From Methanosarcina spelaei (GTDB lineage Archaea; Halobacteriota; Methanosarcinia; Methanosarcinales; Methanosarcinaceae), in assembly GCF_002287235.1 (NCBI RefSeq), contig NZ_LMVP01000516.1, forward strand, positions 1 to 59,450: 59,450 nt of DNA, read 5' to 3'. Shown here one piece after another: positions 348 to 45,701 of the stretch. A program made the translations under genes and the position numbers. Numbering within the stretch: position 1 is the first letter of the stretch; every line of letters begins with the position of its first letter. The notes under the pieces were generated by a model that saw only the letters and a program-made list of their open reading frames with translations, did not search any database and was not told the DNA's origin.

Positions 348-560
348 TTAATGGAAAAGCTCTTCTTTTGCTTTATTAAGATATTTGTTTGCTTCCTCAA
401 TTTTACTGGCAGCTCCAAGGATATCCTCGGAAGCATCGAGAAAACCATCTTTTTTAGCTTTCTGAGCCCATTCCTTGAAACTTTCAATGTGGCTTTCGTT
501 ATGCTCGATCCAGTGCTCAATCAAATGTGAAAGGTTGTCATGACTAAGTTCTTCAGTAAT
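348..560 (-). CDS. Small acidic/basic helical protein (DUF8180-like), apparent ATT start
   Basis: This reading frame of about 70 residues contains the segment HLIEHWIEHNESHIESFKEW, followed by amphipathic helices rich in Lys, Glu and Ala, and ends in TAA. I recognise the pattern as resembling the small DUF8180 family of methanogens (recollection, not searched); function is unknown. There is no ATG, GTG or TTG before the conserved segment, and an in-frame TGA lies just upstream (578-576). A strong Shine-Dalgarno GGAGGG sits 6 nt before an ATT codon at 560, so ATT is the best start candidate; ACG at 566 is the alternative. The His-rich segment could bind metal, which is inference. The gene is monocistronic. 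Confidence 0.65.
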   Translation of the reverse strand: MTEELSHDNLSHLIEHWIEHNESHIESFKEWAQKAKKDGFLDASEDILGAASKIEEANKYLNKAKEELFH

Positions 561-22950: not shown

Positions 22951-23727
22951 ATGAAAGCGTGTATCATGTGCGGAGGGGCAGGGACAAGGCTCAGGCCGCT
23001 AACTTTCAAGCACCCTAAACCCAGCATACCGATTCTAAATAAGCCGTCAGTCCGACATTTGATAGAACATCTTTCAAGAGAAGGGTTCAATGAAATAGTC
23101 ATGACTCTTGGGTACATGGGAGAGCGTATAGAAGAGCAGCTCGGAGATGGGCACATGTTTGGGGTACATATCGACTATGTATATGAGAAAGAAAAGCTCG
23201 GAACTGCAGGCGGTATTAAAAACGCTGAGAAATACTTGAAAGGCGAGCCATTTATCGTTCTTGGTGGAGATCACGTCCTTAACCTCGACCTGAGGGAGAT
23301 GTACCGCTTCCATGAAGCAAATGATGCTCCGGTAACCATAGGGCTCCTTTCGATTGACGACCCTCGAGAATTCGGAATTGCGGACATGGACATTAACAAC
23401 CGGATCCACCGCTTCCTGGAAAAACCGAAATCAGGCCAGATATTCAGCAACCTCGCAAGTACAGGCATTTATATATGTAGCCCTTCGATATTTGAATGGA
23501 TCCCTGAAGATAAAAAATACGATTTTGCAAAAGATCTTTTCCCCTTCATGCTTGCAGCCGACAAAAAAATCAATGGTGTACTTGTGCGGGGAAAATGGAC
23601 TGATGTAGGAAGTTCGGCAGCTTACAGGCAGGCGCAGCGCTGGATGCTCGATTCCCTTCCTGGAACAACAATCGAAGGGAATTTCACAACCCGGAACGCA
23701 AGAATAAAAGGTCCCCTGTCCATTTGA
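22951..23727 (+). CDS. Sugar-1-phosphate nucleotidyltransferase domain (mannose-1-P guanylyltransferase-like), ends at in-frame TGA
   Basis: 258 aa. The nucleotidyltransferase signature MCGGAGTRLRPLTFKHPKP lies at the N-terminus, with LGTAGGIKNAEKYL, GGDHVLNLDL and WTDVGSSAAYRQA later. It makes NDP-sugars for cell-surface glycans. The frame stops at TGA 23725-23727, right where the family's left-handed beta-helix domain should begin, and that domain follows in the same frame (23728-24129). The catalytic domain is complete and might work alone, though many relatives need the beta-helix for oligomerisation. Just upstream are the OB-fold gene and its repeat; a polyprenol-kinase-like gene follows. 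Confidence 0.85.
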   Translation: MKACIMCGGAGTRLRPLTFKHPKPSIPILNKPSVRHLIEHLSREGFNEIVMTLGYMGERIEEQLGDGHMFGVHIDYVYEKEKLGTAGGIKNAEKYLKGEPFIVLGGDHVLNLDLREMYRFHEANDAPVTIGLLSIDDPREFGIADMDINNRIHRFLEKPKSGQIFSNLASTGIYICSPSIFEWIPEDKKYDFAKDLFPFMLAADKKINGVLVRGKWTDVGSSAAYRQAQRWMLDSLPGTTIEGNFTTRNARIKGPLSI

Positions 23728-24129
23728 AACAATGTATGCATAGGTTCGAACTCTTCTCTTGTAGGGCCAATAGTAATAGGGGAAAACACAACCATAGGCA
23801 ATAACGTCCTTATCGGGCCTTACAGCGTGATAGGCTCAAACTGCAATATAGAGGACAATGCAAAGATCCTTTCGTCCTATATTTTTGATAATGTGTCCAT
23901 AGGAAAGGAGTCCAATATCTCAGGTGGAGTGGTAGCAGACGGAACAATCATCGGAGAACACTGCTTCCTTGAAAATGGAACCGTTATCGGACATAAAGTA
24001 CTGATCGGAAGTGATTCAACAATACATTCCGGAGTTAAAATCTGGCCCGAAGTCGTTATAGATAAAGACTCAAGCATAAAGGAAACCGTAATTAATTACG
24101 ATTATGACGCTTCAAACGATGGCTCGTAA
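23728..24129 (+). pseudogene. Severed left-handed beta-helix domain of the nucleotidyltransferase
   Basis: Directly after the TGA the same frame continues for about 133 codons: NNVCIGSNSSLVGPIVIGEN, then repeated hexapeptides such as TTIGNNVLIGPYSVIGSNC and GTIIGEHCFLENGTVIGHKV, to TAA at 24129. This is a hexapeptide-repeat beta-helix. The codon context CCC-CTG-TCC-ATT-TGA-AAC suggests that GGA (Gly) became TGA. An internal GTG at 23827 exists but has no good ribosome site. It is translated only by readthrough or reinitiation. Confidence 0.7.
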
Positions 24130-43642: not shown

Positions 43643-45670
43643 TTATTCTTGGTTTTGTTTCTCCAAACTGAGGCAGTAATTACCCTCTTTTTTCTCAAGG
43701 GCTTGCAGGTATTCGAGGACAGCCAATATATAGGCTGAGTGGGACCAGGCCAGGGGTAGGACGGAGAGAGGTTTGCCTCTGTCATCAATTTGTTCGGATA
43801 GGAGGCCTGTGGGGTAGGCGTGATCTGCGCACCATTCCAGGAGTTTGAGAGCCTGGTCAAGGTTGCCAACTGCGGAATGCCACTGTGAGAGCCAGAGAGT
43901 ACAGATAATCCAGCTATTCATATAGCCAAAATAAGTATCATGAAGGTACCTGGCTATTCCGCCTGAGGGACGCTTAAGTTCACGTTCGATAGCTTCCATT
44001 GTCTGGACAACCCTGAGGTCATCCGGGGGAAGAATTCCGAAGTACCAGACTGCAAAAACCGAAGAATCAAGAGTTGAATCGTCAAGAGCGCGGCGGAAAC
44101 ACTTCAGTTTTTTATCGTAAAGTTTCTCCAGTATGGACTTCCGTATTCGGTCTGAAGCTTTCTTCCAGATGTCTGCGTTGTCATAATCACCAAGAGAACG
44201 AGAGAGTTCATAGGCCCCGATGAGGCCGGCATATACAGTACAAGCGCTGTATGTATACACACCTTTTCGTTCTTCCCACAGGTCAAAACTTGAAATTGGA
44301 AGACCTGTTTCCGTGTCAATGGATTTTATAAGATAGCTAGCTGTGGGAATTACAAGTCTTCTGTAGTATCTGCCTGTAGTCCAGACACTCTTTGCAATTT
44401 CCCAGTTGTTATAGAGAGCGTAAAGAGGAAGTCCTGTTTCATCGATCTGAATCATAGGGACAGGATGCCAGGTACTCCCGAAATCTCCGGCAGGGGTATA
44501 CTTATGGAGAAAGTTGCCTCTAGGGGTGATGATTTTTGAGAAAAATTCAAAAGTCTCTGAGGTAAGGTGATGATATCGTGCCCTATCGAGTGCAAGGCAA
44601 ACCCAGGCTGCATCCCTGGGCCAGCAGTAGGTATAAAGGTCTGCTCCGAATTGCTTTATATCCGAATCGCAGGATGCAATTATCGAGCCTGTGATGTCCA
44701 TGTGCGCGACAACTGCAAGAAGGCTTCTGTAAAAACACTTTAAGACATTATGTGGCAACTGAGATATACGGGAAAATTCCGGAAGGACGGACACTCTCTC
44801 AATAAATGAGCTCCAGAAATTGAAGTTATGATAAAAAAGGGCTTTTCTTCCGGCTTTCTTTTCCTGTTTATGAGTTTGAAGCACGCTACAGTACTTTTTT
44901 CCGAGAACTATCCAGTAGTGTATTCTTGCCGATTCTCCTGGCTTCAGTTCAGGAAGAGTCCAACCAAGGGTGGAATCTACCGAGCCGTGAGCAACAATAT
45001 TCCCACTGAGGGAGGCATCGTTTTCCATATCTCTCCAGGTGCCTTCAAGCCCTTTCCACTCTGCAGTTCCAACTGCATACTGGTCAAACGCAGGGTCACT
45101 TGCATGCAGGAAGTAACGGTCGCGCTTGTAATGTATAAGCGTATGTTTATCGATTACGGCCGTTTCTCCGATTTTTGTCTCAAGAATTCGGTAATTCTGG
45201 TTTGAGAAAAGACGTAAATGTTTGCACTTATTAGAGGTATTAGTGACCTTAAAAGTCCTGTAAAAAATATTTGCCGAGGGATGGACAGCTTCCCAGATAG
45301 TGATTTGAAGTCCGATTTCCGGGTTTTCGAATACTGTTTCCCCTATATTAGAGATAACTCCCATGCAGGCCTCAGGGACTTCCTGATTGCTTTCCATAAT
45401 ATTGTTTTTCCTTCTTACGCCTTCCCTGTTCTCGTCTGAGATTTCAAGAATACGCTTGCAGAAATCCTTCTTAAATTCGGATTTATATCTCTGACGAATT
45501 TTCCAGTTTTCAAGCCAGCTACAATAAAGGGAATCAAGATCGCATATGCCAACTTTTATAGAGTTTCCATGATTTTCAAGTCCTACATATGGAAAATATA
45601 TATCTCTTATAATCCCTTTTTCGTCTTCGCAGATCAGGATTCTTCCATTTCCGAAAATTAGCGGTCTAAT
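43643..45670 (-). CDS. GH15-type glucoamylase/glucodextranase-like protein, anomalous 5' end
   Basis: About 675 aa if started at 45670. The N-terminal beta-sandwich starts RPLIFGNGRILICEDEKGII with RDIYFPYVGLENHGNSIKVG; the (alpha/alpha)6 catalytic domain has YCWPRDAAWVCLALDR, WEERKGVYTYSACTVYAGLI and PLAWSHSAYILAVLEYL. It hydrolyses alpha-glucans or other oligosaccharides from the non-reducing end. The codon at 45670 is ATT, with no usable ATG in frame until 45397 (inside the N-domain). ATG at 45699-45701 is in another frame, separated by a run of five G that would restore the frame if one G were removed. So either an ATT start or a 5' frameshift applies. The domain from 45397 alone would lack about 90 residues. 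Confidence 0.82.
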   Translation of the reverse strand: MRPLIFGNGRILICEDEKGIIRDIYFPYVGLENHGNSIKVGICDLDSLYCSWLENWKIRQRYKSEFKKDFCKRILEISDENREGVRRKNNIMESNQEVPEACMGVISNIGETVFENPEIGLQITIWEAVHPSANIFYRTFKVTNTSNKCKHLRLFSNQNYRILETKIGETAVIDKHTLIHYKRDRYFLHASDPAFDQYAVGTAEWKGLEGTWRDMENDASLSGNIVAHGSVDSTLGWTLPELKPGESARIHYWIVLGKKYCSVLQTHKQEKKAGRKALFYHNFNFWSSFIERVSVLPEFSRISQLPHNVLKCFYRSLLAVVAHMDITGSIIASCDSDIKQFGADLYTYCWPRDAAWVCLALDRARYHHLTSETFEFFSKIITPRGNFLHKYTPAGDFGSTWHPVPMIQIDETGLPLYALYNNWEIAKSVWTTGRYYRRLVIPTASYLIKSIDTETGLPISSFDLWEERKGVYTYSACTVYAGLIGAYELSRSLGDYDNADIWKKASDRIRKSILEKLYDKKLKCFRRALDDSTLDSSVFAVWYFGILPPDDLRVVQTMEAIERELKRPSGGIARYLHDTYFGYMNSWIICTLWLSQWHSAVGNLDQALKLLEWCADHAYPTGLLSEQIDDRGKPLSVLPLAWSHSAYILAVLEYLQALEKKEGNYCLSLEKQNQE

Positions 45671-45701
45671 TCCGGATACCCCCTGCTTTTTTAGTTTTCA
45701 T

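Follow-up and report, generated by a model that had tools for sequence, protein, structure and literature searches.

A conserved AUU codon as the very probable start of a glucoamylase-like gene in Methanosarcina spelaei

The contig NZ_LMVP01000516.1 of Methanosarcina spelaei, the whole 59,450 nucleotides of which are here called the window, carries on its minus strand a long glucoamylase-like reading frame whose conserved N-terminal sequence follows directly on an ATT codon, while the nearest ATG lies upstream in another frame. This arrangement raised the question of where translation of the gene begins. An earlier note on this DNA had offered two answers: either the ATT is the start, or a change of length in a run of five G residues (G5) joins the ATG to the glucoamylase frame and switches the full-length protein on or off, as in phase variation. 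The features at the locus are as follows.

43643 to 45670, minus strand: GH15 glucoamylase-like gene, from ATT (45670-45668) to TAA (43645-43643); open frame, PF00723 match and orthologues.
45668 to 45670, minus strand: putative ATT start codon of the glucoamylase-like gene; ATT, ATA, ATC, GTT or ACG in 33 loci including the window.
45676 to 45684, minus strand: Shine-Dalgarno (SD) site AGGGGGTAT of the glucoamylase-like gene, containing the G5 run (45683-45679).
45666 to 45701, minus strand: short ORF out of frame with the glucoamylase, 11 codons from ATG; not conserved.

The product of the glucoamylase-like frame, which contained 674 open codons after the ATT, matched PF00723 (GH15) with an E-value of 7.6e-27 and 94.7 bits against a curated cut-off of 22, and the gene is thus a member of glycoside hydrolase family 15; the NCBIfam models (TIGR01577) gave scores under their cut-offs only. 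The order on the minus strand was found to be ATG(45701-45699) AAAACTAAAAAAGCA GGGGG(45683-45679) TATCCGGA ATT(45670-45668), and the codons from 45670 (ATT AGA CCG CTA ATT TTC GGA AAT GGA) gave [I]RPLIFGNG. The coordinates, the G5 run and the frames described in the earlier note were exact, with RPLIFGNG directly after the ATT and the ATG in the other frame. This ATG is located 31 nt 5' of the ATT and opens 11 codons followed by a TAG, the first base of which is also the last base of the ATT. From the preceding TGA to the ATT there was no in-frame ATG, GTG or TTG, and the earliest such codon within the gene gave a 584-aa ORF in which 90 residues were lost. The sequence immediately upstream of the ATT, AGGGGGTATCCGGA, contained the SD site. 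As judged from the sequence, this is a genuine gene, and coding starts with the ATT at 45670-45668.

Glucoamylase matches, paralogues included, were present in 48 of 59 genomes searched, and the start was read in 33 loci, namely L001-L027 (window included) and six named records. Excluded from the 33 were L028, L029 and the named records L301 and L302, in which the N-terminal part was unmatched; L030, a paralogue whose ATG stands one codon ahead of the aligned place; and seven named records that were contigs already counted as loci. The start codon was ATT in 23 loci, ATA in 6, ATC in 2, GTT in 1 and ACG in 1, and ATG, GTG or TTG was present at this position in none of the 33. An ATG here in all relatives had been named beforehand as the finding that would speak against an ATT start, and it did not appear (0/33). 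A G-rich, SD-like stretch was present ahead of the codon in the relatives, many of which had AGGAGGT or a similar SD site, and the proposal that the ATT itself is the start was thereby strengthened.

On a protein tree of 32 loci (L027 omitted), the start codon had changed at least five times, with ATA scattered over the basal rows and ATT in most of Methanosarcina; the tree was a quick one in which two long branches meet, so that its deep part is unsure. Over five changes, the absence of ATG at this start is by itself not significant. The 37 nt of leader upstream of the codon showed little conservation except for the SD, and the length between SD and codon differed in at least five loci (L006, L013, L018, L024 and L025), so that any upstream frame is broken. 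Folding of the 60 nt around the start was the same as that of the gene interior (means -10.1 and -9.9; 24/25 loci tried). The conserved codon, the usual SD spacing and the lack of an upstream coding frame all point to a near-cognate AUU/AUC/AUA (AUH) start with an SD. At the level of sequence, the comparison demonstrated the position of the start, the class of its codon, its conservation and its SD.

The earlier note had also suspected an ATT start at position 560 of the window, where the following feature is located.

348 to 560, minus strand: second gene with a putative ATT start (560-558), 70 codons, SD AGGAGG; no family match.

The product of this gene had no Pfam or NCBIfam match at E 0.001. 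Its start codon in 22 loci of the genus was ATT in 10, ATA in 8, ATG in 2, ATC in 1 and ACG in 1, and AGGAGG was found ahead of the start in all 22; an in-frame TTG ten codons upstream, 5' of the SD, was present in 6/22. The suspected link between the two genes held, as the 560 gene behaves like the glucoamylase-like gene, with ATG in just two of the 22 loci.

Putative weak starts were also found in other genes. The gene for rpoB'', identified by NF007175 (861.7 bits, cut-off 355), began with ATC in 30/30 Methanosarcina genomes, and the codon in six other Methanosarcinaceae genera was ATC, ATC, ATT, ATA, ATA and ATA; the outgroups had ATG, GTG or TTG in 24/24 rows, one codon later. Two adjacent ATC codons were present in the genus, and in three sister genera the first position was occupied by AGT, ACC or AAC, so the second ATC is likely to be the rpoB'' start. 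Upstream of rpoB'' lies a short gene (L099, about 1107, plus strand) that by its position we assume may be rpoH; its taken start was TTG in 30/30 loci.

A P-loop ATPase of CooC/MinD-like type matched CbiA, and the name CooC is our assumption. Its start was ATA in 29/29 orthologues of the genus, a count from which a 30th row, a paralogue, was excluded and in which the G018 copy, broken by stops, was included. Among 13 genomes outside the genus, five, all from other families, had ATG at the same codon, and one had ATA there; in one the ATA was located one codon earlier and was itself preceded, at a distance of three codons, by an in-frame GTG; and six had ATG or GTG one codon earlier, four of them, with ATG, being other Methanosarcinaceae genera. 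The alignment ties the putative ATA start to the position of the outgroup ATG, and it shows that a weak start of this gene is not preserved across the Methanosarcinaceae as a whole. An in-frame canonical codon was located upstream in 2/29 loci. Synonymous change was low in the first codons of both rpoB'' and the CooC-like gene; an explanation by a special RNA element in the start region was rejected, since low synonymous change was also found in ATG genes, e.g. aIF1.

We scanned 800 kb of the sister genome G001 (40 stretches, 423 scored coding ORFs) for coding ORFs in which a long stretch of coding sequence precedes any ATG, GTG or TTG. Seven genes, glucoamylase included, were supported by orthologues, which by length scaling suggests, as a rough guess, about 40 such genes per genome. 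No clean peak emerged from the scan's raw table of codons (ATT 5; AAA, GAA and AAT 4 each), as a single SD gives a score to several adjacent codons, and the case for the putative AUH starts is carried by the orthologues and not by this table. In 400 kb of G033, which represents another Methanosarcinaceae genus, three ATC candidates were found among 276 ORFs; we take these (L254, L260 and L263) to include a response regulator-like, a cysteine synthase-like and a LarA-like gene. No ATT, ATC or ATA candidate was found among 239 ORFs in 400 kb of G038, from another family.

The orthologues of the remaining candidates revealed similar codons. The peptide-binding proteins (SBP_bac_5) had ATT in 23 and ATC in 5 of 28 readable genes, after one duplicate row was dropped and with one of 30 loci unreadable; an in-frame canonical codon was located upstream in 5/27 rows, and TTG immediately preceded the ATT in three rows. 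The RND transporter (HAE3) had ATT in 29 and ATC in 1 of the 30 loci read, from a larger number of matches listed and paralogues included, with an upstream in-frame canonical codon in 3/30 and four more rows that matched its second half only. The metallophosphoesterase had ATT in 8/8 rows from five genomes and such an upstream codon in 2/8; ATA was the next codon after ATT in seven rows, so an ATA start is possible there. The eight rows of an AI-2E family gene contained ATA in 2 and ATG in 4, and two were aligned off the codon. The control gene aIF1 had ATG in 29/29 loci of the same genomes. Overall, AUU, AUC and AUA appear to serve as stable starts for a class of genes in Methanosarcina and partly through the Methanosarcinaceae.

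Some candidates were set aside. The CTG start of a ferredoxin-thioredoxin reductase-like gene was rejected since its relatives mix CTG and TTG, and neither L096, which aligned to CTG in two rows, nor L076 (ATT), which had zero orthologue rows, was established. We also observed that the coding stretch of an ABC transporter ATPase (L074, 8608-9507, minus strand) seems to begin at ACG after GGAGG.

SD pairing in eight such genes was stronger than at 101 unambiguous canonical starts (median -6.1; one-sided p 0.0014), a comparison that is biased because the choice of genes leaned on SDs; pairing was ordinary in rpoB'', the RND transporter and the phosphoesterase. The duplex energy for the glucoamylase was computed on the site of the G001 orthologue, and the last base of the 16S tail in the pairing calculation was assumed. 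A 16S tail ending in GGATCACCTCC was present in 5/6 genomes searched and absent from the window's own assembly. With ARAGORN, all initiator tRNAs found in six stretches were CAU: two of the same sequence, near each other, in each of G001, G002 and G033 (L349, L351 and L353), and a single one in each of G020 and G038, of which G020 still keeps the AUH class. An initiator tRNA with another anticodon was rejected on the basis of a stem-loop pattern in five genomes, among the matches listed, and of the exclusively CAU initiators found by ARAGORN, which detected no tRNA at a UAT-like pattern match in G001. AUU, AUC and AUA differ from AUG at the third base alone, which makes them readable as near-cognates by the CAU initiator; probably the ordinary CAU initiator tRNA reads these codons with the help of the SD.

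We are confident, if short of certain, that the glucoamylase-like gene is translated from AUU by SD-assisted near-cognate initiation and that it is one of a conserved AUU/AUC/AUA class. The SD (AGGAGGUG-like), about 8 nt upstream, would hold the small subunit over the AUU, with which the ordinary initiator tRNA (CAU) would pair as a near-cognate, its third base mismatched, and methionine would be the first residue of the protein. AUU, AUC and AUA would initiate less often than AUG, and selection may keep a low or fidelity-sensitive output, such that the codon would act as a throttle and perhaps as a control point for factors like aIF1. As stated in a passage of a review (PMC8211752), S. solfataricus discriminates against non-canonical starts with the help of its aIF1. 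We infer both that the AUU is actually used and that initiation is throttled or controlled by factors.

Other readings of the locus have to be weighed against an AUU start. The two options of the earlier note fared differently: the ATT start was supported by non-canonical codons in 33/33 loci, whereas phase variation was not supported. Phase variation or programmed frameshifting would have translation start at ATG 45701 and shift to the glucoamylase frame by slippage at the G5 run, and the ATG, the run and the frames are indeed present as described; seven further loci have some other out-of-frame ATG no more than 90 nt upstream, at scattered places. However, an ATG matching 45701 was found in only 3/33 loci, which were the window and its two nearest relatives, and the run was G5 in 14/33 and other than G5 in 19/33. 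The run doubles as the SD, and what was proposed as a length switch appears to be a variable SD site. The CooC-like gene also has an out-of-frame upstream ATG in some species that is absent from others. A phase-variable gene was rejected on the 3/33 and 19/33 counts, and the frameshift reading, contradicted by the relatives, is largely refuted and strikes us as extremely improbable. Termination-reinitiation at the TAG overlapping the ATT was rejected as well, as this overlap is not preserved in all loci. Initiation might instead occur at an upstream in-frame canonical codon, e.g. a GTG three codons before the ATT within the SD; 12/33 glucoamylase loci contained an in-frame canonical codon upstream, nine of these being GTG at -9. 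The window and 20 other loci were without such a codon, a start at the GTG would have no SD because the two overlap, and in none of 36 rpoB'' loci did the stretch from the last stop to the start codon contain an in-frame canonical codon, all of which makes an upstream start very unlikely. As the window is one of 559 contigs, a sequencing error or a pseudogene in this assembly was also considered, but single-contig relatives (G001, G002, G014 and others) carry the same codon, and the frame stays open over 674 codons. The independent genomes refute this reading, which retains next to no probability.

Simple tolerance is a serious rival to throttled initiation. It holds that in this family AUU, AUC and AUA are about as good as GUG and UUG owing to a laxer initiation machinery, with no regulation involved, and it would be consistent with seven orthologue-supported cases in 800 kb and 423 coding ORFs, with the use of AUC by an RNA polymerase subunit gene and with the mixture of AUH and ATG in the 560 and AI-2E genes. 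Start codons in the genus are also generally stable, as in the TTG gene beside rpoB'' (30/30), so the absence of ATG is partly shared history. On the other hand, AUG is one mutation away and was never found within the genus in six of the seven gene families read, and there is a tendency towards stronger SDs, as though to compensate, in a biased choice of genes. We regard tolerance as quite possible, although somewhat on the doubtful side. A more far-reaching extension of the throttle would be a translational regulon of the Methanosarcinaceae, in which several dozen genes, including that of RNA polymerase B'', have AUU/AUC/AUA starts that serve as a cell-wide dial. Their output would vary with how strictly starts are selected (aIF1/aIF1A/aIF2 or initiator tRNA supply), unlike a single infC-like loop; this proposal is tentative and, in our opinion, rather unlikely.

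The infC gene (IF3) of E. coli has an AUU start and resembles the genes described here in that a weak AUU start is kept in place. To go by the titles of two papers (Butler 1987; Brombach 1987) cited in PMC9845219, the AUU of infC limits expression, and a change from AUU to AUG abolishes autocontrol. In contrast, infC is one self-controlled bacterial factor gene, while the genes here are unrelated and belong to an archaeal genus and family; furthermore, AUC and AUA are found here besides AUU, unlike in E. coli infC. Autocontrol of the infC type by aIF1 was rejected, since the aIF1 gene has ATG in 29/29 loci. In chloroplasts, conserved gene-specific non-AUG starts were proposed as a control layer (PMC9845219), to which the present class is similar. 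The passages available from that study describe reporters with AUG, GUG, UUG and CUG and mention AUU/AUC in connection with altered genes of Chlamydomonas and as starts that are rare in prokaryotes; unlike the present genes, they include no AUH class in an archaeon. Non-ATG starts were found by Ribo-seq in small ORFs of M. mazei, a member of the same genus (PMC11456600); the starts named there are ATG, TTG, GTG and CTG, and 'AUU' is absent from the main text. In a passage of a 2021 review, elongation and termination are given as the only stages at which non-canonical events had been demonstrated in Archaea (PMC8211752), and the start codons named in a 2020 review are AUG, GUG and UUG (PMC7531240); 'AUU' is absent from the main text of both. 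Among the matches listed, mainly from the open-access literature, there was no report of AUU/ATT starts in archaea or Methanosarcina.

Gene finding with ATG, GTG and TTG alone would miss or truncate genes with AUH starts. With these codons only, the 70-codon 560 gene fails to be called in its present form, and the peptide-binding proteins would lose a hydrophobic N-terminal segment. Methanogens with genetic tools exist, and a conserved AUH class in tractable methanogens would make archaeal start-codon fidelity directly testable.

Elsewhere in the window (22951-24126, plus strand), we observed a sugar-nucleotide transferase (NTP_transferase) and a left-handed helix domain (LbH) in one frame that is split by a single TGA at 23725-23727, and this is either a broken gene or an assembly error.
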